Positions 1 to 20,161 of a stretch of 24,024 nt of DNA are shown here, piece after piece (the first letter of the stretch is position 1; each line of letters starts with the position of its first letter). The position numbers and the translations under genes were made by a program. The notes beneath the pieces are model-generated. The model was not told the origin of the DNA. It did no database searches and saw only the letters and a list, made by a program, of their open reading frames with translations. Origin of the DNA: a virus; IMG/VR virus record IMGVR_UViG_3300031521_002122, positions 1 to 24,024 of that record; one strand, 5' to 3'.

Positions 1-1239
1 TCTGCTTTGCTTGGGGAAAAGGTAAGGGTTAAAATCCTTAAATCGCAAAAAACTTACGCATTTGGAAAATTGCTAGAGGTTATAGAGCCATCGAAGCATA
101 GAATTGAGCCAAAATGTAAATATTTCTATAAATGTGGTGGTTGCTCATTTTGGCACGTAGATTATGAGGCGGAGCTTGAATATAAAACTCAAAAGGTTAC
201 AGACTGCATAAAACGAATAGGTGGTTTAAATGTTGAAGTTCTGCCAACTATCGGTGGAGGAAGCTGTGAACGCTATAGAAACAAGGCTCAATTCCCTGTT
301 ACACCTGAGGGAATAGGATTTTTTGCGCAAAGAAGCCATAGACTAATTTCAATAGATGATTGCATTATTCAAAATGAAGTAAATGAGGAAATTATAAATG
401 CCGTTCGTGAATTTATGTTTGAATTTGCAATAAAACCATACGATGAAACACAGCATATAGGCGATATAAGGTATGTTTTTACAAGGGTTGCAGAGGAAAC
501 GGGCGAAATTATGGTGTGCGTCGTTACAAGGGCAAAAAAGCTACGCCATAGTGACGAATTGGTCAAAAGACTATGTGAGGCAAATCCTAATATAGCTAGC
601 ATTATTCAAAACATAAATCAAGAGAAAACCAATGTTGCACTTGGTAATACAGATATAATTCTTTATGGCAAGCCATTTATAAAAGATAAAATTGGTGATT
701 TGCAATTTGAAATATCATCTCATTCTTTTTATCAGGTAAACCATAAGCAAACTAAGGTAATGTATGATAAGGTTGTTGAATTTGCAGGATTAACGGGCAA
801 TGAAACAGTATTTGACCTATATTGTGGAATAGGAACAATTTCGCTATATGTTTCAAAGTATGCAAAAAGGGTAGTCGGGGTTGAATGTGTAGAAGACGCA
901 GTTTTAGACGCACGCAAAAATGCAGAATTAAATGGAATCACAAATGCGGAATTTCATGTAGGAAATGCTGAAGATATTGCGGAAACTTTAGGCGAAGCGG
1001 ATGTAGTTATACTTGATCCTCCAAGAAAAGGGTGCGACGAAAAACTGCTACAAACCATTGCGAAAATTGCACCAAAGCGAGTTGTCTACGTGTCGTGCAA
1101 CCCAGCAACCCTTGCTAGAGATATGAAAATTTTAAAAGAATTAGGATATAACGCGATCACTATTCAACCACTTGACATGTTCCCGAGAAGTCCACACGTG
1201 GAATGTTTGGTTCTGCTATACAACGGGTCAGAAACTTAA
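1..1239 (+). CDS. rlmD: 23S rRNA (uracil-5-)-methyltransferase, RlmD/RumA family (5' partial)
   Basis: SAM-dependent 5-methyluridine methyltransferase of the TrmA/RlmD family, acting on 23S rRNA in the cytoplasm. The reading frame is open to the first base of the window and begins inside the TRAM domain (residues ~1-25, counted from the TTG at 7), so the true start lies upstream. An Fe-S cluster set C37, C43, C46 and C119 is visible. The SAM site DLYCGIGT (270-277), DPPRKG (337-342), the catalytic-Cys motif VSCNPATLARD (C364) and the general base in HVE (E399) are all present, so the enzyme looks functional. The last few residues after HVECLVLL do not look like a conserved family end, and no terminator hairpin follows. 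This fits replacement of the 3' end by an integrating element. It is probably a host chromosomal gene; the exact paralogue (RlmD versus RlmCD) cannot be fixed. Confidence 0.92.
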   Translation, partial: SALLGEKVRVKILKSQKTYAFGKLLEVIEPSKHRIEPKCKYFYKCGGCSFWHVDYEAELEYKTQKVTDCIKRIGGLNVEVLPTIGGGSCERYRNKAQFPVTPEGIGFFAQRSHRLISIDDCIIQNEVNEEIINAVREFMFEFAIKPYDETQHIGDIRYVFTRVAEETGEIMVCVVTRAKKLRHSDELVKRLCEANPNIASIIQNINQEKTNVALGNTDIILYGKPFIKDKIGDLQFEISSHSFYQVNHKQTKVMYDKVVEFAGLTGNETVFDLYCGIGTISLYVSKYAKRVVGVECVEDAVLDARKNAELNGITNAEFHVGNAEDIAETLGEADVVILDPPRKGCDEKLLQTIAKIAPKRVVYVSCNPATLARDMKILKELGYNAITIQPLDMFPRSPHVECLVLLYNGSET

Positions 1240-1260
1240 AAAAATGTGTCGTCCTTAAAA
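1195..1260. other. candidate prophage attachment site (attL region)
   Basis: The host gene rlmD ends at 1239, and phage-type operators, shared with promoters deeper in the prophage, begin at 1261. The host/phage junction should therefore lie at or just before 1261, most simply within the last codons of rlmD around the conserved HVE codons (CACGTGGAATG at 1195-1205). Large serine integrases often use the inside or 3' end of conserved genes, and rumA-type genes are known targets of serine-recombinase elements in Firmicutes. The core cannot be located without the right end of the prophage or an empty site. Confidence 0.35.
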
Positions 1261-1333
1261 TCCAAAAAGGAAATAATTTTATTCAAATTTTCCAAAATGG
1301 ATTGACACCATGTTATTTTTTATCTATAATGGA
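1261..1333 (+). promoter_or_regulatory. operator array, three copies of a TCCAWAATGGA-like dyad
   Basis: Three 11-base sites: TCCAAAAAGGA (1261-1271), TCCAAAATGGA (1291-1301) and TCTATAATGGA (1323-1333), spaced 30 and 32 bases. The same motif occurs at 6150-6189, 6484-6524 and 9841-9902, each time upstream of a phage gene. Their placement around the -35 and -10 boxes indicates repression. The binding protein is unknown; one of the small XRE proteins of this prophage is the natural suspect. Confidence 0.6.
1302..1330 (+). promoter_or_regulatory. consensus sigma-A promoter for the ASCH-like gene
   Basis: TTGACA at 1302-1307 and TATAAT at 1325-1330, separated by 17 bases: a perfect vegetative promoter. 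Transcription should start near 1337, about 30 bases before the TTG start at 1368. The -35 box directly abuts one operator copy (1291-1301) and the -10 lies inside another (1323-1333), so a bound protein would be expected to repress it. Confidence 0.85.
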
Positions 1334-1367
1334 TAGTATGAAAATAACATAAGAGGGGCGAGCGACT

Positions 1368-1982
1368 TTGAAACAAAGGATAATTAGCTTAAACATGAGC
1401 GTAGAGGCAGTAAGAAATCTAGAACATGGTAAAACACAACATAGATTATTGATTAAACCACAACCAGGAAACCAAGCAGTAAAAGGACCATATTACGTTA
1501 TGGATTGTGGAAAGCCAATGGTATCAACGTATAAAGTGGGTGATATTATCTATGTAAGGGAGCCATGGGATGTTGTCAATGAAGAACCAGATGAAACTAA
1601 AGCTGAATATTTATATTATGCAGATTACCCGGATCCAGGGCATCAACCCATAAAGCGATGTCATAGTGTTTGGATGCCAGCCTCAAGCATGCGAAAGTTA
1701 GCTGTAAGGCATTGGCTTGAGGTAACAAATATATATCCACAAAAACTAATAACGATAACCAACGAAGAAATCAAACGTGAGGGGCACAAAAATAAATTTG
1801 ATTTGATAAATTATTGGAATGAGTGGGTGTTGAGGAATTGTAAAGAATTAATTAAAATGAAAAGGCTTTTAACATATGGTTGGGATACCAACCCTTGGGT
1901 GTGGGTAATAGAATTTAAAGAAATCGAAAAGCCATCAAATGTAGATTATAGAAAAAGGAAAGTTTACAAAAAATGTGAATAA
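1368..1982 (+). CDS. ASCH/PUA-like domain phage protein
   Basis: 204-residue protein resembling the ASCH-type proteins common in tailed-phage genomes. It has an N-terminal GKTQHRLLIKP segment (residues ~22-32), then GDIIYVREPWD (~58-68), then WMPASSMRKLAVRHWLEV (~102-119), a helical ISNEEIKREG-like stretch and a C-terminal NPWVWVIEF (~179-187). ASCH domains are RNA-binding PUA-like folds, and some relatives hydrolyse acetylated cytidine; neither activity can be assigned here. The start is TTG with AGAGGGG nine bases upstream. The gene lies between the host gene and the integrase, outside the usual early operon, and has its own consensus promoter with the phage operator repeats. This suggests an accessory gene of the prophage rather than a host gene. 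A strong terminator follows. Confidence 0.7.
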   Translation: MKQRIISLNMSVEAVRNLEHGKTQHRLLIKPQPGNQAVKGPYYVMDCGKPMVSTYKVGDIIYVREPWDVVNEEPDETKAEYLYYADYPDPGHQPIKRCHSVWMPASSMRKLAVRHWLEVTNIYPQKLITITNEEIKREGHKNKFDLINYWNEWVLRNCKELIKMKRLLTYGWDTNPWVWVIEFKEIEKPSNVDYRKRKVYKKCE

Positions 1983-1992
1983 GATAAAATTC

Positions 1993-2020
1993 AAGCCACG
2001 GTGTCAATCCGTGGCTTTTT
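1993..2020. terminator. bidirectional intrinsic terminator between the ASCH gene and the integrase
   Basis: Perfect 9-bp stem AAGCCACGG (1993-2001) / CCGTGGCTT (2009-2017) with a 7-base loop and a run of T (to 2020) on the plus strand. On the minus strand the stem is followed by an A/T-rich tail, so it should serve both convergent genes. The integrase stop codon (complement of 2004-2006) lies in the loop. Confidence 0.85.
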
Positions 2021-3449
2021 CACGTTCGGGGAGGAAAGTCCAATCAATCTCTATGTGATCATCAAATACAACGATTTGACGTATTAACGCAGATAAGAGG
2101 AAACGTTTTTGTTCAAGATCGGCCATGTCCCATAATGTAGATGTATTCGATAATAATTCAGCCACACCATCGGTAAGGTTTTCTTCGTCATTTTCAGTAG
2201 GTAGTGATTTTAATTGATCAACAAGTAATAATTTTTCTTGATGAAGTGTGTCAATACGACTTGAAACAACATCCATCGGAATGGTATCACTTTGATATAG
2301 ATCCATGAGTTTATTTATTTGTTTGTCAATTTCAATAATTCTTGTATCTATATATTTTTTATTTGAATCAACAGATTTGTTTCTTGGTTTAGAGGTTTTT
2401 AGTAATTTATCAAAATATGAGTTATCAAAGCAGAGCAAACGAATTTCATAATCAACCATAGCCTCCAATATTTCAACTCTCCACCTTTTAGCTTTGCAGC
2501 TTGTTGATTTAGACATTTTTGAATTACTTTTCCCCACGGAATAACATGAATAATATTGGGTTATTTTATTTACAGAATGAGAATAAAATCTTGAACCACA
2601 AACACCACATCGTAAAAATCCAGACAATAACATTTCTCCACGTTTAAATGATGAGCCGAACTTTTTGTGCCTTTCCTCCCTTGTCGATTTTACTTGATCC
2701 CATAGTTCTTTTGTAATAATAGGATCGTGTGCATTCTCGATCACCATGGCTTTAAATTTAATATGCCCAAGATAAACTATATTAGATAATACAGAGGTTA
2801 CAGATGAAGTATATGACCAATTACCAGTTTTATATTTATAACCAGAGGAATTCATAAAAGTCGCAATACGGTCAGTACCCATACCAGACAAATATAATTC
2901 ATAAACTTTACGTACCTGCATAGCCTCATATTCATTTATTATAAGTTTGCCTTCTTTTGTTTGGTCATAGCCGATAGGGTCATATGGACCCCCATGGTAT
3001 AACCCTGCTTTTGCACGTTCTATCCTGCCCATGAGTGAGCGTTCCTTGATTTGTTCACGTTCCAATTGAGCGAATACAGATAGAATACCAATCATAGCAC
3101 GACCAAATGGGGTTGATGTGTCAAAGGACTCATTCATTGAAACAAAATCAACACCATTGGGTAAAAATACTTCCTCAATAAGGTAAAGCATATCACGTTG
3201 TGAACGAGAAATCCTGTCTAATTTGTAAACTAAAACAATGTCAAATTTTTTAATTTCACTAATCATTTTTTGCATAGCAGGCCGCTCAAGACTAGAACCA
3301 GAGAAACCACCATCAACAAACATATCAGCGACTATCCAATCCTTAGCCTTGCAATAAGCAATAAGCCTATCTTTTTGAGCACCAATAGAGTAACCCTCGT
3401 TTACTTGTTCCTGGGTGCTTACTCGTATGTAACATGCAACTTTCTTCAT
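2004..3449 (-). CDS. int: large serine recombinase (phage integrase)
   Basis: 481-residue site-specific recombinase that would integrate and excise the prophage. The N-terminal resolvase domain has the catalytic serine S11 in YIRVSTQEQ, with R9 and the LDRISR motif (77-82) as further active-site elements. A recombinase domain follows at ~155-255. A zinc ribbon is formed by C281, C284, C302 and C318, and a coiled coil lies at ~370-430, as in phiC31-type large serine integrases. Length is typical. The start ATG (3447-3449) overlaps the stop of the upstream XRE gene in an ATGA, so the two are probably translationally coupled. The last codons and the stop lie within the terminator hairpin shared with the ASCH gene. 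Confidence 0.95.
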   Translation of the reverse strand: MKKVACYIRVSTQEQVNEGYSIGAQKDRLIAYCKAKDWIVADMFVDGGFSGSSLERPAMQKMISEIKKFDIVLVYKLDRISRSQRDMLYLIEEVFLPNGVDFVSMNESFDTSTPFGRAMIGILSVFAQLEREQIKERSLMGRIERAKAGLYHGGPYDPIGYDQTKEGKLIINEYEAMQVRKVYELYLSGMGTDRIATFMNSSGYKYKTGNWSYTSSVTSVLSNIVYLGHIKFKAMVIENAHDPIITKELWDQVKSTREERHKKFGSSFKRGEMLLSGFLRCGVCGSRFYSHSVNKITQYYSCYSVGKSNSKMSKSTSCKAKRWRVEILEAMVDYEIRLLCFDNSYFDKLLKTSKPRNKSVDSNKKYIDTRIIEIDKQINKLMDLYQSDTIPMDVVSSRIDTLHQEKLLLVDQLKSLPTENDEENLTDGVAELLSNTSTLWDMADLEQKRFLLSALIRQIVVFDDHIEIDWTFLPEREKATD

Positions 3450-3805
3450 CTCATATAATCCTCAAATTCCGGGAATGCTGATATAATTAAATTTCTGAAA
3501 CGTTTTGACTTTTCTTTCGGTATTATTATTGTTTCACACATACCATCATCATCTTGCAGAACAAAATAATCATTTGTACTATTTTCATTGTCGGCTTTTT
3601 TCCTACGAGTAGGATCATCCGATAGGCCAACTATAAAATCAATTGATGCATTGAAAAAAACAGCCATGGCAGATAAGGTTTTGATGTTTGGCTCTAAAAG
3701 ACCGGTCTCGTATTTTGAGATGTTCGAAGATGTTTGACCTATACGGTCACCTAATTCTTTCTGAGTCATTCTTATACTCTCACGTAAATATTTTATCCTA
3801 TTCAT
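3446..3805 (-). CDS. XRE-family HTH regulator coupled to the integrase
   Basis: 119-residue protein with a classical XRE helix-turn-helix at residues ~2-60 (RESIRMTQKELGDRIGQTSS, then NISKYETG), followed by a short acidic C-terminal part without a recognisable peptidase motif. The ribosome site GGAGG lies 7 bases before the ATG on the minus strand. Because its stop overlaps the integrase start by four bases, it may control integrase expression or immunity. It lacks the LexA-type Ser/Lys self-cleavage region, so it would not be inactivated by RecA-stimulated cleavage. It is a candidate ligand of either operator family seen in this window; that is inference. Confidence 0.82.
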   Translation of the reverse strand: MNRIKYLRESIRMTQKELGDRIGQTSSNISKYETGLLEPNIKTLSAMAVFFNASIDFIVGLSDDPTRRKKADNENSTNDYFVLQDDDGMCETIIIPKEKSKRFRNLIISAFPEFEDYMR

Positions 3806-3827
3806 TTGTTACCTCCACAATATTATT

Positions 3828-4460
3828 TTATTTTAGATTTTTAAGTTTTGATTTTACAGACGGATGTATGGTATAATATTCAGCAATATTCAAAAGTTTA
3901 TTATAATCAGAGAACACTAAGTCACCAAAGTTTTTGTAATTAATTTTGTCGCTTTCTGATTTAGTAATACGTACAAAATATCCAATGAATTGTGTGTCAT
4001 TGCCGTAATTATCGGTAGCATCTAGTTTAAATTGTACTTGTACTTTTTTAACACCATCAATTTTAAATAGCTTTCCCATAGCTTCTACAGCGTTATATGA
4101 ACAGTCTCGGATAAACTTATCTTCATCGAAAGACATCAGAGGGGTATATGTTGTTACAACAAAGACCAAACCACTGTCTTTGTCAAAAGATGAACTTTCA
4201 AGTCCCATAAATCGAGCCTTGCTAATTTCGGAAATTTTTTCATCTGTTGTAAGTATTGGTGTAGCAGTAGGTGAAGGCTTAATAGTTACAGTAGGCTTTG
4301 CAGATGCACGAGCAGAGGGAGTGGTGCGTGTAGCAGTTTCGTCTGCATAGTTATTATATGCAATCCCAATACATAATGCGAAAATTATAATTGACGAGAT
4401 TATAACGAAGTTTCGATTTTCATCATTTTTAAAAAATTCAATTATTTTTTCCTTTATCAT
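3828..4460 (-). CDS. membrane-anchored protein of unknown function in the lysogeny module
   Basis: 210-residue protein. The N-terminus is short and charged (MIKEKIIEFFKNDENRN), followed by one hydrophobic segment at residues ~18-36. There is no lipobox cleavage context, so it is probably an uncleaved anchor. A Thr/Pro/Ala/Ser-rich linker (~43-72) leads to a ~135-residue C-terminal domain predicted to lie outside the membrane. The family is not recognised. AAAGGAG lies 7 bases before the ATG. Its position between the CI-like repressor and integrase, in a block expected to be transcribed in the lysogen, is where phages of Gram-positive bacteria often keep superinfection-exclusion genes. That role is inferred from position only. 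Confidence 0.65.
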   Translation of the reverse strand: MIKEKIIEFFKNDENRNFVIISSIIIFALCIGIAYNNYADETATRTTPSARASAKPTVTIKPSPTATPILTTDEKISEISKARFMGLESSSFDKDSGLVFVVTTYTPLMSFDEDKFIRDCSYNAVEAMGKLFKIDGVKKVQVQFKLDATDNYGNDTQFIGYFVRITKSESDKINYKNFGDLVFSDYNKLLNIAEYYTIHPSVKSKLKNLK

Positions 4461-4519
4461 TTCTAAACTCCTTTACAAATTTTGTGTCTAAACACATTAA
4501 GGCATAAACTCCACACAAA

Positions 4520-4876
4520 TCACGTTGCCCATTCTTTTGAGAATTCTACATCCATTTTTTTCCCTTGTTCTCTTATGAGCTCAACCATTTTGCCCTTTAT
4601 ATAGTCTTGATCCTCATCGTTCAATTGACCATAATAATTTAATACTTTATTCTGGTCATCATTCAATTTTTTCGTATTTTCTAGATTGTTCATCTCTAAC
4701 AGGTAATCAGTTGATACTCCGAAATATTTAGCAAATGTTTTGATTATATCCCCATTAGGAGTTACACCAGCCTTCCATTTTGCTACATTTCCTCTACTAT
4801 AACCTAATTTTTGAACGAGTGGAGTTATTTTTTCACTGTTCACAGTACATAAATGTTCCAATTGTTCATAAAACAT
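4520..4876 (-). CDS. CI-like XRE repressor of the lysogeny switch
   Basis: 118-residue DNA-binding protein with an XRE helix-turn-helix at residues ~5-62 (SEKITPLVQKLGYSRGNVAKWKAG, shown here in two pieces: SEKITPLVQKLGY and SRGNVAKWKAG; then FGVSTDYLLEM) and a helical C-terminal region (~70-110) that probably dimerises. It is transcribed away from the Cro-like gene across a control region with two related operators, the standard layout for the main repressor. GGAGG lies six bases before the ATG. There is no autoproteolysis domain, so induction must work by another route, for example the Rha/ORF6C antirepressor encoded at 6558-7310 or a host factor. Confidence 0.8.
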   Translation of the reverse strand: MFYEQLEHLCTVNSEKITPLVQKLGYSRGNVAKWKAGVTPNGDIIKTFAKYFGVSTDYLLEMNNLENTKKLNDDQNKVLNYYGQLNDEDQDYIKGKMVELIREQGKKMDVEFSKEWAT

Positions 4877-4901
4877 AAAAAACCTCCATAGAAATTATGC
4901 A

Positions 4902-4929
4902 ATTTTAACAAAATGCACTTTAGTGGATA
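4902..4929 (-). promoter_or_regulatory. probable leftward promoter for the repressor, with operator O2
   Basis: On the minus strand an extended -10 (TGT then TAAAAT, complement of 4902-4907) stands about 26 bases before the repressor start, with only a weak -35. The operator-like AATGCACTTTAGTGGATA (4912-4929) fills the spacer. Its left half matches operator O1 exactly and its right half is degenerate. Binding here would give repressor autoregulation. Confidence 0.5.
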
Positions 4930-4936
4930 ATAGGTG

Positions 4937-4965
4937 TTGACTAATGCACTGTAGTGCATTATAAT
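4937..4965 (+). promoter_or_regulatory. rightward early promoter (PR) with operator O1 in its spacer
   Basis: TTGACT (4937-4942), 17-base spacer, TATAAT (4960-4965). The spacer is almost wholly occupied by the dyad AATGCACTGTAGTGCATT (4943-4960), a perfect inverted repeat of 8-base arms around GT. A repressor bound here would block RNA polymerase directly. This promoter should drive the Cro-like gene and the early operon. Confidence 0.85.
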
Positions 4966-5102
4966 TACTATTGTAACATTCATTTTTAACAATATTTACC
5001 CATAAAGGCAAATAGTACTTGATTTTTTAATATCCACCTTTTTACATCATTATAGTTTAAAATGTTAAAAATGTCAATTACAAATGAAAGGAAGTGAGGA
5101 AA

Positions 5103-5297
5103 ATGAAACCTGCAAAAAGAGTAATTCCGAAATGGTGCAAGGAAGCCAAAAAAGCACTGATAGACAAAGACATGGCTATCCAAGATCTTTCGGAAAATAT
5201 CGGCTTTACAAGGGAACACGTATCAGCCGTTATAAACGGCAGGGTTATAAGCCCTAATACTCAAAATCTAATATGCGATTATTTGAAAATTGTTTAG
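5103..5297 (+). CDS. Cro-like small HTH protein
   Basis: 64-residue basic protein consisting of one helix-turn-helix (DKDMAIQDLSENIGFTREHV then SAVINGR), the first gene after the rightward promoter. The size and position are those of a Cro-type early regulator. An upstream GTG at 5094 is open, but it sits only two bases after the AAAGG; the ATG at 5103 has AGGAAG eight bases upstream and is the better start. About 130 bases of leader separate it from the predicted transcription start. Confidence 0.75.
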   Translation: MKPAKRVIPKWCKEAKKALIDKDMAIQDLSENIGFTREHVSAVINGRVISPNTQNLICDYLKIV

Positions 5298-5343
5298 TAA
5301 AGCTAGGTTGTATAAATTATACCATGAAAGGCAGATGAAATAA

Positions 5344-5847
5344 ATGCCTAGCAAAGCACCAAATACATACTCAAATAGATATAAACAGGCCAGAATTAAA
5401 GCAGGAAAGTACAACGAACAGTTATTGACAAGAGTATCTGCAGTGAATTATTTGCCGGGGGTCACAGAAGATTGTCTTAAAAAATATGAGTTGGATATAA
5501 ATAGACCACCAAATATTGTAGTTGCTTTGATGGCAGATGCTTATAATCAACCAGAACTGCGACAATGGTATTGTGCCAATGAATGTCCACTTGGTAAGGA
5601 TAGAATATCAGAATCAGACACTATGCCTCCAGAGAGAGCACTTATTAGGCTGAAAAAAGGCATGAAGGAAATTGACAAAGCTATGCAAGAACTAGCAAAC
5701 ATTATGGATGATGGGGTGATATCGGAAGAAGAGATGGAATTACTGCCAAATATCATGGAACAATTTATGGAGGCACGTAAGAGAATTGATGAAAACATAA
5801 TGGCCATAGAACGTTCTATAAAACACAAAAGTTTTAACAAATATTGA
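5344..5847 (+). CDS. phage XRE-like regulator with WYC-xx-ECP motif
   Basis: 167-residue protein. The N-terminal ~60 residues resemble an XRE domain (YKQARIKAGKYNEQLLTRVS, then a KYELDINRPPNIVVALMADAY stretch split here as KYELDINRPP and NIVVALMADAY). The motif RQWYCANECPLGKD follows (residues ~73-86) and is typical of a regulator family found early in clostridial prophages. The C-terminal half is helical and acidic and may dimerise. The recognition helix is poorly conserved compared with functional XRE proteins, so DNA binding is not certain. Its ribosome site is weak (AAAGG 12 bases away). The next gene follows after 12 bases with a strong AGGAGG. Confidence 0.65.
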   Translation: MPSKAPNTYSNRYKQARIKAGKYNEQLLTRVSAVNYLPGVTEDCLKKYELDINRPPNIVVALMADAYNQPELRQWYCANECPLGKDRISESDTMPPERALIRLKKGMKEIDKAMQELANIMDDGVISEEEMELLPNIMEQFMEARKRIDENIMAIERSIKHKSFNKY

Positions 5848-5859
5848 GGAGGAATTCAA

Positions 5860-6138
5860 ATGACAACCAAATACGAAGAAAACATTCAAAATGTAATAGC
5901 GAACCATACTATCAATTTAATGCTTGAAGTAGCAGCAATCAAAGGTATAACTTTTGCACAGCAAGAGGATGGAGATGCAGGAGTAAATGCATGTGCTGAA
6001 ATTATACATTGTGGCTTGAGAATATATACTAAACAAGAAATCATAGAGGCAATTAGAGATGTTGCACCAAAGGACGATATATTCCTACATACAAATAAGA
6101 TGAAAAAAATAATTCGATGGATAAATAATAACAAATAA
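5860..6138 (+). CDS. hypothetical early phage protein
   Basis: 92-residue soluble protein; no family is recognised. It has a helical N-terminus, two cysteines in ACAEIIHCG (residues ~45-53) and a basic C-terminal tail (KMKKIIRWINNNK). AGGAGG is placed eight bases before the ATG. It is the last gene of the first early block; a new promoter with operators follows at 6150-6198. Confidence 0.6.
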   Translation: MTTKYEENIQNVIANHTINLMLEVAAIKGITFAQQEDGDAGVNACAEIIHCGLRIYTKQEIIEAIRDVAPKDDIFLHTNKMKKIIRWINNNK

Positions 6139-6149
6139 AAATCAAATTA

Positions 6150-6189
6150 TCCAAAACAGATAATTATACTTTACAAATTCCGAAATAGA
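6150..6189 (+). promoter_or_regulatory. operator pair upstream of the small XRE gene
   Basis: TCCAAAACAGA (6150-6160) and TCCGAAATAGA (6179-6189), 29 bases apart, matching the operator family at 1261, 6484 and 9841. The second copy lies in the spacer of the promoter at 6170-6198, in nearly the same register as the copy in the recT promoter. Confidence 0.6.
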
Positions 6190-6198
6190 TAGTATAAT
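6170..6198 (+). promoter_or_regulatory. promoter for the 6292 XRE gene
   Basis: TTTACA (6170-6175), 17-base spacer, TATAAT (6193-6198). The spacer ends AATAGATAG exactly as in the recT promoter, whose spacer ends AATAGATAG before TAATAT. The predicted start near 6205 falls two bases before a long stem-loop. Confidence 0.8.
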
Positions 6199-6206
6199 AG
6201 AGTTAA

Positions 6207-6265
6207 TGATTATTAACAGGTCGAACATATAATGTTTTGAGATTGTACAGACTTGTTAATAATCA
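6207..6265 (+). promoter_or_regulatory. 16-bp stem-loop at the 5' end of the XRE leader transcript
   Basis: Left arm TGATTATTAACAGGTC (6207-6222) pairs with GACTTGTTAATAATCA (6250-6265). All 16 positions pair in RNA, with one G-U wobble. The 27-base loop contains a minor hairpin AACAT/ATGTT. No T-run follows, so it is not an intrinsic terminator. The ribosome site GAGAGGGG lies about 10 bases downstream, outside the stem. Possible roles are a transcript-stabilising 5' end, a regulatory leader, or, at DNA level, a pair of inverted half-sites. Confidence 0.7.
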
Positions 6266-6291
6266 AAAAATTATAGAGAGGGGATGAGATG

Positions 6292-6480
6292 ATGAACAGA
6301 GTAAAAGAACTGCGTATGGAAAAAGGAGCAACAGCAAATCAACTGGGAACATTGATTGGTGTGAGTACAGGCACATATTGGAAGAAGGAGGCAGGTGTTT
6401 TGCGTTTCAGCTTAGTGGATGCAAAAGTTTTAGCAGATTTTTATGGAGAAAGTATCGAAAGTATTTTTTTTGCAGAGTAA
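6292..6480 (+). CDS. small XRE/Cro-type regulator
   Basis: 62-residue protein that is a single helix-turn-helix (RVKELRMEKGATANQLGTLI, then GVSTGTYWKKEAG). Two adjacent ATGs (6289 and 6292) follow GAGAGGGG; the second gives the better spacing. It has a private promoter, two operator copies and a structured leader upstream, and two more operator copies directly downstream of its stop. It is therefore a good candidate for the protein that binds the TCCATAATGGA-type sites, possibly autoregulated. That assignment is inference. Confidence 0.72.
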   Translation: MNRVKELRMEKGATANQLGTLIGVSTGTYWKKEAGVLRFSLVDAKVLADFYGESIESIFFAE

Positions 6481-6483
6481 ATA

Positions 6484-6524
6484 TCTGAAATGGAATAATT
6501 TTAACTAAAATGTTCTATAAAGGA
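6484..6524 (+). promoter_or_regulatory. operator pair and possible weak promoter before rha
   Basis: TCTGAAATGGA (6484-6494) and TCTATAAAGGA (6514-6524), 30 bases apart. The second contains TATAAA (6516-6521), mirroring the copy at 1323 that contains TATAAT, but no clear -35 box is seen. This is the most degenerate of the four clusters; spacing and position argue that it is real. Confidence 0.45.
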
Positions 6525-6557
6525 ATTAAGGTGAAAAAATTTTAAGGAGGAAAAATT

Positions 6558-7310
6558 ATGACAAACGTAATTAACATTCAAACTCAAGACGGGAATTTGA
6601 CCGTCAGCAGCAGAGATGTAGCAGAGCATTTTGAAAAAAAGCATTGCCACGTATTAGATTCAATAGAGAGTTTAAGGGCACAAACGACATCAACCGAAAA
6701 TTCGGTCAATCTTTTTATCGCATCAATTTATACAGATAGCTATGGTAGAGAACAAAAAGAATACCTTTTAACTCGTGATGGATTTACATTAACTGCAATG
6801 GGATTTACTGGAGCAAAGGCTCTCCAATGGAAAATGAAGTACATAGAAGCTTTTAACGAAATGGAACGAGTAATCAAACAATCTTTTGAAAACCTATCAC
6901 CACAACTGCAATTGTTAATCAATATGGAACATCAACAGAAAGAACAGGCAAAAGCTATCACAAAAGTCGAAAACAAGGTAGAAAAGCTTGAGCTTAAGAT
7001 TGAAACATTTTCCAAGCCACTTGAAGAAACTTGGCGTGATGATATGAACAGCATAATCAATGGTTTGTGCAAGCAAAACAATTTAAACTATCAGACATTT
7101 AGAGGCGAATTGTACAATGAATTAGAAATACAAGCAAGCTGCAATCTTAAGGCAAGAGTTAGTAGGTTAAAGGAACGAATGGACAAAGCGGGAGCAAAAT
7201 ACACCGACAGGAAAGCCATAACAAAGCTTCACGTTATAGACCAAGATAACAAACTTAAGTTAATATTCGAGGGAATTGTTAAAAAATATCAAATGAGATA
7301 TTCGGGTTAA
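6558..7310 (+). CDS. rha: Rha family regulatory protein with C-terminal ORF6C domain (antirepressor)
   Basis: 250-residue phage regulatory protein. The N-terminal Rha domain covers residues ~10-108 (SSRDVAEHFEKKHCHVLDSI, the YLLTRDGFTLTAMGFTG core at ~69-85, and WKMKYIEAFNEME). A coiled linker at ~118-150 precedes a C-terminal ORF6C-type domain (~155-250) with SIINGLCKQNNLNYQTFRG. Proteins with this architecture act as antirepressors or modulators of the lysis-lysogeny decision in phages of Gram-positive bacteria and in P22/phi80-like phages. AAGGAGG lies ten bases before the ATG. Operator copies at 6484-6524 lie in the upstream gap. Since the CI-like repressor here has no self-cleavage domain, an antirepressor is a sensible partner. 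Confidence 0.88.
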   Translation: MTNVINIQTQDGNLTVSSRDVAEHFEKKHCHVLDSIESLRAQTTSTENSVNLFIASIYTDSYGREQKEYLLTRDGFTLTAMGFTGAKALQWKMKYIEAFNEMERVIKQSFENLSPQLQLLINMEHQQKEQAKAITKVENKVEKLELKIETFSKPLEETWRDDMNSIINGLCKQNNLNYQTFRGELYNELEIQASCNLKARVSRLKERMDKAGAKYTDRKAITKLHVIDQDNKLKLIFEGIVKKYQMRYSG

Positions 7311-7329
7311 ATCCACAAAGGAGATAAAA

Positions 7330-7476
7330 ATGAGAGTAGATGGTATTAAATCAAATGATGCAATATACATGGCATTTATAACGGTAGCACAACAGATAAA
7401 AGAGAGAGGGGAAAAAGTTAATGAAACAAACGATGAAAACAAATCCGAACAATTCAAACAAGCATGCGAGGCTTAA
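7330..7476 (+). CDS. 48-residue hypothetical protein
   Basis: Small ORF encoding MRVDGIKSNDAIYMAFITVA followed by a charged tail ending KQACEA. AAAGGAG stands seven bases before the ATG, and the ORF fills the gap between rha and the next gene. No family is recognised. The N-terminal half could form an amphipathic helix and the C-terminal half is very hydrophilic. Confidence 0.55.
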   Translation: MRVDGIKSNDAIYMAFITVAQQIKERGEKVNETNDENKSEQFKQACEA

Positions 7477-7500
7477 TATGCTTATAAGTGCGGTGGTTAT

Positions 7501-7719
7501 ATGAAAAAGTCATTAATTATTATCGCATTTTTGATTTTTTACTTAGTGGGGCAAAACGTAGAGAATGCTAACTACGAAAGAACAGCTAGGCAGATGTACC
7601 GAGAAAAGATAAGTGCATATAGGGAATATGATATGAGCATAACGAAAAGTGCCGAAGAAAGAATCCTCGACACTAGCGAAAGAAAACAAAAAGTGAGCGA
7701 CCACTTAAGTTTGAAATAA
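7501..7719 (+). CDS. small secreted or membrane-anchored protein
   Basis: 72-residue protein with MKK followed by a hydrophobic stretch SLIIIAFLIFYLVG (residues 4-17), i.e. a signal peptide or a single membrane anchor, then a charged, helical region rich in Arg/Glu/Ser. The ribosome site is poor (GGTGG four bases upstream). A nine-codon ORF (7478-7504, ATG...TGA) overlaps its start, so translation may depend on coupling. No family is recognised. Confidence 0.5.
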   Translation: MKKSLIIIAFLIFYLVGQNVENANYERTARQMYREKISAYREYDMSITKSAEERILDTSERKQKVSDHLSLK

Positions 7720-7781
7720 TTATATAACAAACAATAGTAAAAGTCAAGCTTGCGAAAATTTATGAGAAAAGGAGAGCGACT

Positions 7782-9818
7782 ATGAGATTACTAAGATTAA
7801 AATTAGAAAACTATCAAGGACTCAAAGAATTTGAACTTAATGCAGATGGTAAGGATGTAATAATTAAGAGTGACAATGGGGGAGGAAAAACAACAGTAGC
7901 AAATGCACTCACATGGTTATTATATGACAAGGCAAGCACTGGGGAAAAAGGGTATACACCAAAAACAACCGATGCAAACGGTGATGAAGTACATTATATG
8001 CACCATAGTGCAGAGGGAATGTTCCAAAAAGATGATGGTAGCATTATTTCATTGAAACGTGATTTTTTTGAAAACTGGCAAAAGGTGAGAGGTAGCAATG
8101 CCGAGAGTTTTAAAGGGCACAACATTGAGCATTATGTAGATGGGGTCCCAGTCAAAGAAAAAGAATACAAAGATATTCTTTCTGACATTTGCGACTCGGA
8201 GCAAGCTATGATGCTGACAATACCAGAATATTTTGCAGATACTATGACATGGCAAAAACGCAGAGAAATACTACTTGATGTTTGTGGTTATATTACAGAC
8301 GAAGATGTTATTAAAAATACAGCTGAACTTGCTGATTTGCCAATTTACCTATTAAAACTAGGAACAACGGATCAATACTACACCGTAGAGGAATATGCAG
8401 CCATAGCAAAATCGAAAAAGGCTGAAATCAACAAGGACCTACAAATGATACCGGCACGCATAGATGAGGCTAAAAAAGCCATGCCAGATGTCGCAGGAAT
8501 AGATGCCGACACCATAGACCACTGGATCATGAATAACGAGCAGGATAAAACTACCCTGGAGCAAGAGCGAAACATGATCGACATAAACCAAACATCATCG
8601 GTGCGAGGGCAACTGGCAGACGTTAAATCATTCATGGCAGAGGATAAGGTCAAATACAACGAAACCCAAGAGAAAGTCAACGAGGAAACACGCAAGGGAA
8701 TACAGACGGGGCAGACCAATATATTTGATACCGAGAACCTAATTAGAGAACTGGGGCATAAGAGGGATAACGTCAAAGACAGGATGCAGAGAATCACACA
8801 GCAGCGAGCAAGCCTGCTAGAAGAATACAACGTGGTACTGGCTCATCAATACATTCCATTTATTGCCCCAGAGATTGCCGACAACTGCCCCACTTGTGGA
8901 CAAGCAATCCCAACCGACCAGATAGAGGATGCAAAGGCAAAGCACACAACAGCAGAGCAATTGCGATTAGAAGAATTTAATCTAGCCAAAAGCCAAAACC
9001 TAGAAAAGATAAATCAAAAAGGCATTACTGAGTGTAGCAAAACACTTATTACAGAACTTCAAGACGAAGTAGACAAGTATGATGCCGAAATTATACGGCT
9101 TACAGAGGTAAAGACCACAGCCACGATCACCATGGAAAACTTGAAGAGCCGAATAGTTGTAGCCGTACCTTTTGAGGACACACCAGAGGGCATAAATTAC
9201 CTAACAAAAATTGCTCGGTTAAACGAAACAATAGAAACTGGTAGCAATAATGCAACCGAGGCTAAAAACGCAATGCAACTCAAAATTGATGTTGTAAATA
9301 AAAATTTAGCAGATCTTCAAGACAAAAAGGCATCAATCCGAATTGCACAAACACAGCAAAAACGAATCGAAGATCTTATGGCTAACGAAAAAGACCTTGC
9401 GAGTCAATATGAGTATATAGACCATGGTGTATGGCTAACAGAGGAATTCACCAGGGCAAAAGCTAAGATGCTGACCGATAAAATTAACAGCAAATTTGAT
9501 ACTATCAGATTTAAACTTTTTGTAACACAGGTCAATGGAGGACAAACAGATACATGTGAAGTCCTAGTGCAGACAACCGAGGGGTTGAAACAGTTTAAAA
9601 AAGCAAATAACGGAGCAAGAATAAACGGTGGAATAGAAATAACCAAGGTATTAAGTGACCACTGGGGAATATCAATGCCACTTATTTTAGACAATTGCGA
9701 AAGTGTTACTAGAATACAACCAACAACAGCACAACAGATAAGAATGTATGTAAACGAGGCTTATCCACAGCTTACAATAGAAACGGAGCGATCATTGAAA
9801 GTAGTAAAAGGAGCATAG
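7782..9818 (+). CDS. SbcC/Rad50-like ATPase with zinc hook
   Basis: 678-residue SMC-like ATPase. The N-terminal half-domain starts LRLKLENYQGLKEFEL and has a P-loop SDNGGGKTT (residues 30-38). Long coiled-coil arms (~200-560) flank a zinc-hook motif NCPTCGQAIP with C369 and C372, which dimerises the arm tips in Rad50/SbcC. The C-terminal half-domain ends with a Walker-B-like LILDN (~633-637), in which the usual second acidic residue (DE) is Asn. It is shorter than cellular SbcC (about 1,000 residues) and no SbcD nuclease gene is next to it. It stands just before RecT, so a role in processing DNA ends for phage recombination or replication is likely. GGAGAG lies seven bases before the ATG. A short A/T-rich gap without obvious promoter precedes it. 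Confidence 0.85.
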   Translation: MRLLRLKLENYQGLKEFELNADGKDVIIKSDNGGGKTTVANALTWLLYDKASTGEKGYTPKTTDANGDEVHYMHHSAEGMFQKDDGSIISLKRDFFENWQKVRGSNAESFKGHNIEHYVDGVPVKEKEYKDILSDICDSEQAMMLTIPEYFADTMTWQKRREILLDVCGYITDEDVIKNTAELADLPIYLLKLGTTDQYYTVEEYAAIAKSKKAEINKDLQMIPARIDEAKKAMPDVAGIDADTIDHWIMNNEQDKTTLEQERNMIDINQTSSVRGQLADVKSFMAEDKVKYNETQEKVNEETRKGIQTGQTNIFDTENLIRELGHKRDNVKDRMQRITQQRASLLEEYNVVLAHQYIPFIAPEIADNCPTCGQAIPTDQIEDAKAKHTTAEQLRLEEFNLAKSQNLEKINQKGITECSKTLITELQDEVDKYDAEIIRLTEVKTTATITMENLKSRIVVAVPFEDTPEGINYLTKIARLNETIETGSNNATEAKNAMQLKIDVVNKNLADLQDKKASIRIAQTQQKRIEDLMANEKDLASQYEYIDHGVWLTEEFTRAKAKMLTDKINSKFDTIRFKLFVTQVNGGQTDTCEVLVQTTEGLKQFKKANNGARINGGIEITKVLSDHWGISMPLILDNCESVTRIQPTTAQQIRMYVNEAYPQLTIETERSLKVVKGA

Positions 9819-9840
9819 CATTCAGCTTACCAAGTAATTA

Positions 9841-9902
9841 TCCAAAATAGAAATATATTGCTTGACTAATTCCATAATAGATAGTAATATATCCATAATG
9901 GA
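9841..9902 (+). promoter_or_regulatory. operator array of three dyads upstream of recT
   Basis: TCCAAAATAGA (9841-9851), TCCATAATAGA (9871-9881) and TCCATAATGGA (9892-9902), spaced 30 and 21 bases. The last is a perfect dyad around a central A and is the best single example of the motif. The middle copy lies in the promoter spacer and the last copy directly after the -10, both positions where binding should repress. Confidence 0.65.
9862..9890 (+). promoter_or_regulatory. promoter for recT and the replication genes
   Basis: TTGACT (9862-9867), 17-base spacer, TAATAT (9885-9890). This internal promoter separates the SbcC-like gene from recT. It has the same operator-in-spacer arrangement as the promoter at 6170-6198. 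Confidence 0.75.
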
Positions 9903-9938: not shown

Positions 9939-10892
9939 ATGAGCGAACAAAAGCAAGCACTGACAATGAAACAAGAAACAGCCGACAAGGTAGCCGACAA
10001 AGTAAAGATACTGGTACAACAGGGGGAACTTTTCGTACCAAGTAATTACTCACCAGACAACGCACTGAAGAGTGCATGGCTGATCCTGCAAAACACCGAG
10101 GATATGAACAAGAAAAAGGCATTAGAGGTTTGCACCCCGGACAGCATAGCAAACAGCTTATTCTCAATGGTAATACAAGGACTTAACCCAGATAAAAAGC
10201 AATGCTATTTCATAGTTTATGGCAACCAACTACAAATGCAACGTTCATATTTTGGTAGTATAGCAGTAGCAAAAATGGCGAACCCAAAGGTTGACGACAT
10301 CATCGGTGACATAGTATACGATGGTGACGAAGTCGTCTACGAGAAACGCAGAGGAAAGACCATAATAACCAAGCACACGCAAGTCCTTGAGAACATCGAC
10401 AGGACAAAGTTAAAGGCTGCATACGCATCGGTGCTTTATACAGACGGCACAGAGGAAAGCATTATTATGACAATGGATCAGATAAAGCAATCTTGGAAAC
10501 AAAGCAAAACGTACCCAGTAGATGATAAAGGTGGGTTAAAAGCGACTAGCACTCACGCAAAGTTCACCGAAGAAATGGCGAAAAAGACGGTCATAAACAA
10601 AATAGCCAAGATGATTATTAACACATCGGATGACAGTACCCTGCTCGGTGCTTTTAATAAGACGGAGGACATCATCATCGAAAGCGAGGCTAATGCACGA
10701 ATTGAGGAGAATGCGAACAAGCAAAGCCTAGACATTGACCTCGGAGCACCAAGAGAAGATGACGGTCCAGTAATAGATATAGACCTCGACACAGGCGAAA
10801 TCATCAAGCCAGAGCAGGAAGAACAAGCACAAGATCAAAACGATGACAACAGTCAAATCCAAATGGAAGAGCCACAAAAAGCAGACTTCTAA
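9939..10892 (+). CDS. recT: RecT family single-strand annealing protein
   Basis: 317-residue recombinase that anneals complementary single strands in phage recombination. The central RecT domain spans residues ~40-240, with VIQGLNPDKKQCYFIVYGNQ and QMQRSYFGSIAVAK (~75-115) as conserved segments, and KFTEEMAKKTVINKIAKMII (~205-225). The C-terminal tail is acidic and low in complexity (EDDGPVIDIDLDTGEI and more), as in many RecT/Bet proteins. GGAGG lies about nine bases before the ATG. No RecE/YqaJ exonuclease gene is next to it; the neighbours are the SbcC-like ATPase and an MBL-fold protein. Confidence 0.95.
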   Translation: MSEQKQALTMKQETADKVADKVKILVQQGELFVPSNYSPDNALKSAWLILQNTEDMNKKKALEVCTPDSIANSLFSMVIQGLNPDKKQCYFIVYGNQLQMQRSYFGSIAVAKMANPKVDDIIGDIVYDGDEVVYEKRRGKTIITKHTQVLENIDRTKLKAAYASVLYTDGTEESIIMTMDQIKQSWKQSKTYPVDDKGGLKATSTHAKFTEEMAKKTVINKIAKMIINTSDDSTLLGAFNKTEDIIIESEANARIEENANKQSLDIDLGAPREDDGPVIDIDLDTGEIIKPEQEEQAQDQNDDNSQIQMEEPQKADF

Positions 10893-19840: not shown

Positions 19841-20161
19841 TTGGGTAGACAAAAAGAGCCATGGTGGAGTTACGTTAAGAGCATAATCGGACAATACCCC
19901 GAGTTGCAGAGAGAAATGACTTCTACGGATGAAATGAAAAACATTCAAAAGTATGAGGCAATATCAAATGCGATAAATAAAATAAGCAACATTCACCCAG
20001 ACGACTACCAACAGAGGCTAAAAGTAATTGAACTAGTATATTTTAAAAAGACGCACAACATAGAGGGTGCATCAATGATAATACCTTGTCACTTAAATAC
20101 AGCAGGACGATGGCAAGGGGAGTTCATACGGATAGTAGCTGATGAATTGCAACTACCATAA
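19841..20161 (+). CDS. RinA/ArpU-like phage transcriptional regulator
   Basis: 106-residue protein resembling the small sigma-like late-gene regulators that stand just before the terminase genes in clostridial phages. It has an N-terminal KEPWWSYVKSIIGQYPELQ (residues ~5-23) and a C-terminal helix-turn-helix with the characteristic LVYFKKTHNIEGASMIIPC, then HLNTAGRWQGEFIRIVADEL (~66-103). TTG start with GAGGAGGGG about six bases before. Likely role: activating the packaging and structural operon to the right. Confidence 0.72.
   Translation: MGRQKEPWWSYVKSIIGQYPELQREMTSTDEMKNIQKYEAISNAINKISNIHPDDYQQRLKVIELVYFKKTHNIEGASMIIPCHLNTAGRWQGEFIRIVADELQLP

Follow-up and report, generated by a model that had tools for sequence, protein, structure and literature searches.

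Ten 11-bp dyads in a partial prophage as probable operators of a TP901-1-type CI/Cro switch whose two genes lie on either side of another switch

Ten copies of an 11-bp dyad lie in four clusters of a prophage stretch, IMG/VR virus record IMGVR_UViG_3300031521_002122. Here, we report that they are best read, with good confidence, as operators of a CI/Cro-type (TP901-1-like) lysogeny switch, a CI/Cro (Mor) pair formed by two predicted helix-turn-helix (HTH) proteins of the same stretch, XRE119 and XRE63. XRE119 (119 amino acids [aa]; 3446 to 3805, minus strand) would be the CI-like repressor and XRE63 (63 aa; 6289 to 6480, plus strand) its small Cro/Mor-like partner. Judged from sequence, binding of the dyads by both proteins is somewhat favored, and binding by neither is very improbable. 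The window analyzed is the entire 24,024-base record, the left part of a prophage that adjoins a host rlmD-like gene (7 to 1239).

All sites are given on the plus strand. Cluster A (1261 to 1333) holds 1261 to 1271 (TCCAAAAAGGA), 1291 to 1301 (TCCAAAATGGA), and 1323 to 1333 (TCTATAATGGA); cluster B (6150 to 6189) holds 6150 to 6160 (TCCAAAACAGA) and 6179 to 6189 (TCCGAAATAGA); cluster C (6484 to 6524) holds 6484 to 6494 (TCTGAAATGGA) and 6514 to 6524 (TCTATAAAGGA); and cluster D (9841 to 9902) holds 9841 to 9851 (TCCAAAATAGA), 9871 to 9881 (TCCATAATAGA), and 9892 to 9902 (TCCATAATGGA). These coordinates and their spacings (30, 32, 29, 30, 30, and 21 bases) had been listed in an earlier sequence-only reading of the window and were all correct on recheck. 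With each site left out of the matrix in turn, its rank was 2 to 16 of 48,028 strand-positions. The fairest test was a matrix made from 14 sites of three other phages only and scanned over 24,014 window positions, which placed 10 of 10 sites within its top 16 (ranks 3, 1, and 6 in cluster A; 8 and 12 in B; 11 and 16 in C; 4, 7, and 2 in D). At that threshold, the window contained 16 matches (mean, 6.1; maximum, 14 in first-order Markov sequences) and 4 tight clusters (mean, 0.05; maximum, 1 in 300 random sequences). All 10 sites are intergenic, a class of DNA that makes up 5.5% of the window by our own gene count; the six remaining matches are the number expected by chance, and five of them are coding. 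A simple two-mismatch count is modest (48 versus 35.7 by chance) and would suit AT-rich, promoter-like words chosen by eye, but four clusters where 0.05 were expected, the wholly intergenic placement, and recovery by a matrix from other phages make such a chance origin extremely improbable. A literature search on the letters of the motif found no phage paper.

The sequence-only reading had also proposed that the spacing, mostly about three helical turns, would set bound proteins on one face of the DNA. The phasing proved loose (29 to 30 bp, 2.8 turns; 32 bp, 3.0 turns; 21 bp, 2.0 turns), and because the offsets vary among related phages (about 25 to 27, 29, 34, and 40 bp), we reject strict helical phasing as a conserved feature.

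Copies in three of the clusters overlap promoters, as had been proposed. At the promoter of a gene for a 204-aa protein (1302 to 1330, plus strand; TTGACA-17-TATAAT, 12/12 consensus), site 1323 lies over the −10 and site 1291 abuts the −35. The promoter of XRE63 (6170 to 6198, plus strand; TTTACA-AAT-TCCGAAATAGA-TAG-TATAAT, 11/12) carries its dyad in the middle of the 17-bp spacer, an OL-like place with the same register in related phages, and so does the promoter of recT (9862 to 9890, plus strand; TTGACT-AAT-TCCATAATAGA-TAG-TAATAT, 9/12; 17-bp spacer), where site 9892 additionally falls around the transcription start. Since the place of the dyad relative to −35 and −10 differs from promoter to promoter, a repressor would fit better than an activator. 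For cluster C, the window promoter list has no promoter. It does lie upstream of the gene for a Rha-type regulator (6558 to 7310, plus strand), which it had been thought to serve, but it is best read as a distal operator where the Cro/Mor-like gene ends: site 6484 to 6494 stands four bases past the XRE63 stop, not within the gene, an OD-like place.

A perfect 10-bp inverted repeat (ATGTTATTTT / AAAATAACAT; window 1310 to 1350, plus strand) flanks operator 1323 to 1333 and is roughly centered there. The XRE63 leader (6207 to 6265, plus strand) contains a 16-bp inverted repeat (−22 kcal/mol; z, −5.85; no shuffle equal) with no U-run after it, which could act in translation control or as a DNA-level site; Rfam gave no match in the window, this repeat included.

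The link from the dyads to XRE119 and XRE63 comes from other phages. RecT, Rha, phrog_6499, and XRE63, each used as a single-sequence query, returned distant relatives or none, and none with the motif. Of 58 stretches found by a pattern scan for paired motif copies, most were coding repeats or near-identical contigs; the scan's excess of 30-bp spacings was an artifact of these and was not used, and L028, the sole match of the first pair pattern, was taken as chance. Two loci picked by DNA motif alone, L065 and L068, resemble the window (TTGACA-ATA-TCCAAAATAGA-AAC-TATAAT and TTGACA-CTT-TCCAAAATGGA-ATA-TACAAT). In both, the dyads are flanked by a divergent pair consisting of an XRE119 relative (56% over 61 aa in L065, 32% in L068) and an XRE63 relative (37 to 38%), and because no protein entered the selection, this pairing is independent evidence. 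A second DNA-only scan, for promoter plus operator, found L155 and L164, which both encode the pair; most of its matches had no HTH pair nearby and were taken as chance or unrelated.

An alignment of the three small proteins retrieved 27 loci, and a CI-type gene is divergent and close in nearly all distinct loci with enough upstream sequence. Across about a dozen other phages, divergent neighbors homologous to XRE119 and XRE63 have 11-bp dyads between them, one centered in the 17-bp spacer of the small gene's promoter (like 6179 and 9871 in the window) and the others upstream and near the transcription start; most relatives also have a distal dyad, at −45 to +5 around the small-gene stop. Recurrence was tested in 13 loci (eleven of the alignment loci plus L155 and L164), with the 11 bases at mid-spacer of the small gene's promoter as reference and the rest of the loci as background (278 in 75,251). 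Similar 11-mers were enriched in intergenic DNA, where they were frequent near −66, −40, and +27 (36 in 1,929 positions; odds ratio, 5.1; p 5e-14), and also around the small gene's end (17 in 1,300; odds ratio, 3.6; p 1.5e-5), with p values that are indicative only, because the loci are related and independence is overstated.

The dyad varies by phage (TCCAAAATGGA, TCCTAATAGGA, and TCTGATTAAGA, with GTGTCGAAAACGACAC and TTACC...GGTAA as more distant types), as expected if it follows its regulators, and the closest XRE119 relative (L065, 56% in the HTH) has the motif of the window. In bacterial genomes, more distant relatives are laid out in the same general way, with other dyads. The comparison of motif and regulator among related phages that had been suggested thus finds like dyads accompanying the pair and changing with it. 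The dyads look regulatory, as the sequence-only reading held. A host regulator as the binder is scarcely credible: across many phages, such dyads go with the phage gene pair and change in sequence along with it, and 0 of the 10 window sites lie in the host gene.

The sequences hint at a recognition-helix code (S/A-N-I-S with a purine at base 4; S/A-A-V/I-S mostly with T), which is not claimed here, as L068 breaks the rule and the sequences are related. Dyads like TTTCCAAAATGGAAC and TTTCCATAATGGAAA, 30 bp apart, were seen in a different setting in L079, L081, L091, L099, L103, L113, and L115.

TP901-1 has a central operator (OR), one overlapping the lytic promoter (OL), and one in the distal part of mor (OD), a layout reported to be common to many lactococcal and streptococcal phages despite differing operator sequences (PMC7250872). 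Its CI does not self-cleave (PMC11149083), and the CI of staphylococcal phi13 binds operators in equivalent places (PMC8516035). Relatives of the window pair have an OR/OL/OD-like layout, and the window retains the OL (6179 to 6189) and OD (6484 to 6494) places. The resemblance extends to the proteins, a CI without peptidase and a small HTH partner. Pfam gives an HTH (HTH_3) only for XRE119, whose structure model shows, beside the HTH, a small C-terminal part and no C-terminal peptidase domain, and XRE63 was modeled with high confidence as an HTH fold of the P22 c2 / 434 Cro type (Mor is not among the solved chains listed, an absence that proves nothing on XRE63-Mor kinship). The window differs from TP901-1 and phi13 in operator sequence (their half-site is AGTTCAYR [PMC8516035]) and from TP901-1 in having operators at recT and the 204-aa gene as well. 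Unlike in TP901-1 and most relatives, its CI and Cro/Mor-like genes are not adjacent and divergent and have a second switch between them, so we do not class it as a plain TP901-1-type member.

Other known systems match in part. Lambdoid CI/Cro switches (P22 c2, 434 Cro) share the modeled HTH type of XRE63 and the several operators per promoter but differ in that XRE119 lacks a self-cleaving peptidase domain, in the distal operator, and in the split genes. By sequence, the solved chain nearest to the XRE119-type profile is 7t8i (ICEBs1 ImmR); gene order differs from ICEBs1, and next to XRE119 we noticed no gene for an ImmA-type protease. Mycobacteriophage L5-type stoperators are likewise phage repressor sites distributed over several places of a single genome (PMC9283540), but those of the window are dyads in four promoter-proximal clusters, with coding matches at chance level, rather than many asymmetric elongation-stopping sites found genome-wide, transcription units included.

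Dispersal of the operators has one parallel. Whole-record scans of phages with an intact pair found clear operators at the switch and roughly the control number elsewhere, whereas those of the window extend over 8.6 kb at four places, including recT and the 204-aa gene. In phage G395 (62 kb), five promoters carry a dyad in the spacer. They precede a 63-aa-type gene, an amidoligase gene, and two unknown genes and also occur where cluster D has its counterpart, between the AAA gene and the genes that lead up to recT. Neither an XRE119 relative nor an HTH_3 protein was detected in G395, in a search for HTH_3 that missed even the 63-aa gene and on a record that may be incomplete. Dispersal accompanies a split or missing partner in two cases, the window and G395, and in the intact pairs examined the operators are local. 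A long hairpin (GTATACTTATAGT...ACTATAAGTATAC; L147, G395 ~19930 to 19990) starts at the −10 of the operator-bearing AAA-gene/recT promoter.

With its dispersed dyads, its 63-aa relative, and no detectable CI, G395 supports the choice of the 63-aa protein as binder, which the sequence-only reading had made. That choice is credible, relatives of XRE63 adjoining such dyads in about a dozen phages, but incomplete: as the divergent CI partner of the 63-aa protein in relatives, XRE119, which that reading had named only as one of the products for binding assays, is at least as strongly implicated. If XRE63 alone bound the dyads, it would be an autoregulated repressor of several early promoters, with XRE119 acting elsewhere; its gene does lie between clusters B and C. 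We consider this unlikely, because most relatives have a divergent CI-type gene beside the same dyads, the closest CI relative has the dyad of the window, and a G395 regulator could have been missed for the reasons given. Conversely, XRE119 might be the sole binder, with XRE63 a Mor-like antirepressor that acts by binding XRE119. The TP901-1-like operator layout is in keeping with this, and TP901-1 Mor is reported to be without high-affinity DNA binding by itself (PMC11149083), but retention of dispersed dyads and a 63-aa relative in G395 leaves it rather improbable.

A further switch lies between XRE119 and XRE63. A CI-like repressor (4520 to 4876, minus strand) and a Cro-like protein (5103 to 5297, plus strand) form a first pair with operators of its own at 4914 to 4927 (TGCACTTTAGTGGA) and 4945 to 4958 (TGCACTGTAGTGCA), the latter within the spacer of promoter 4937 to 4965, the same design as in the dyads. 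Their sequence is unlike that of the ten dyads, which bears out the earlier claims that the dyads differ from the CI-like operators (4914/4945 on recheck) and belong to a second circuit. A leftward promoter (5049 to 5077, minus strand; 12/12 consensus) is likely that of a putative lysogeny operon (4876 to 2004). From it, a leftward series runs through the first repressor and a membrane protein to XRE119, whose stop is overlapped by the start codon of a serine integrase (2004 to 3449, minus strand); no terminator-like site is listed on the minus strand between the promoter and XRE119, and directly upstream of XRE119 there is neither a dyad nor a strong promoter. On the simplest reading, the lysogen would make XRE119 together with the first repressor. 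Inside the AAA gene, TGCACCATAGTGCA (window 7999 to 8012) is a dyad one mismatch from the first-switch operators, either a distal operator or chance.

From the site positions, their excess over chance, the promoter overlap, and the like dyads by homologous pairs, we infer binding by XRE119 and XRE63, repression, and its timing as follows. In the prophage, XRE119, probably expressed from the lysogeny operon of the first switch, would bind the dyads and block RNA polymerase at three promoters (those of XRE63, recT, and the 204-aa gene), and it would also sit on the distal operator that immediately follows XRE63. XRE63 would be produced upon induction, bind the same dyads, and repress its own and the other early promoters in a Cro-like manner. 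More tentatively, the two immunity switches may be stacked, XRE119 having lost its own divergent promoter to ride in the lysogeny operon of the first switch while its operators spread to recombination and accessory promoters.

Several points weigh against this account, besides the relatedness of the 13 loci and the reported behavior of Mor. XRE119 (ending at 3446) and XRE63 (starting at 6289) are not neighbors, with the first switch between them; L126/G395 has no extra dyad copies in its own switch region; site 6514 by itself (rank 16) does not stand out from coding background and is accepted only because it is clustered; and the choice between XRE119 and XRE63 rests on indirect evidence.

As for the genes served, the 204-aa protein (1368 to 1982, plus strand) belongs to phrog_874, a family of unknown function; its earlier identification as an ASCH protein found no backing, Pfam giving no match even at E = 5. 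RecT (9939 to 10892, plus strand) matches PF03837 (E, 1.5e-37). The prophage adjoins the 3′ end of the host rlmD-like gene (window 7 to 1260), whose best relatives in genome contigs are 36 to 40% identical; an attachment core of the prophage was not found.

The switch type itself appears to be a known one, and the unusual part would be the split pair, set around a second switch, with dispersed operators. The motif is tied to a specific protein pair, which provides a concrete candidate regulon, and the OR/OL/OD-like layout described for lactococcal and streptococcal phages is found again in many other phages, whose operators are quite different. If the two switches are indeed stacked, they would constitute a small phage-encoded regulon released only once the first switch flips. 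Together, the window and G395 offer two natural cases of separated switch parts with operators put to use at recT and at other early promoters, and they are relevant to the growth of phage regulons and to immunity where a phage carries two switches.

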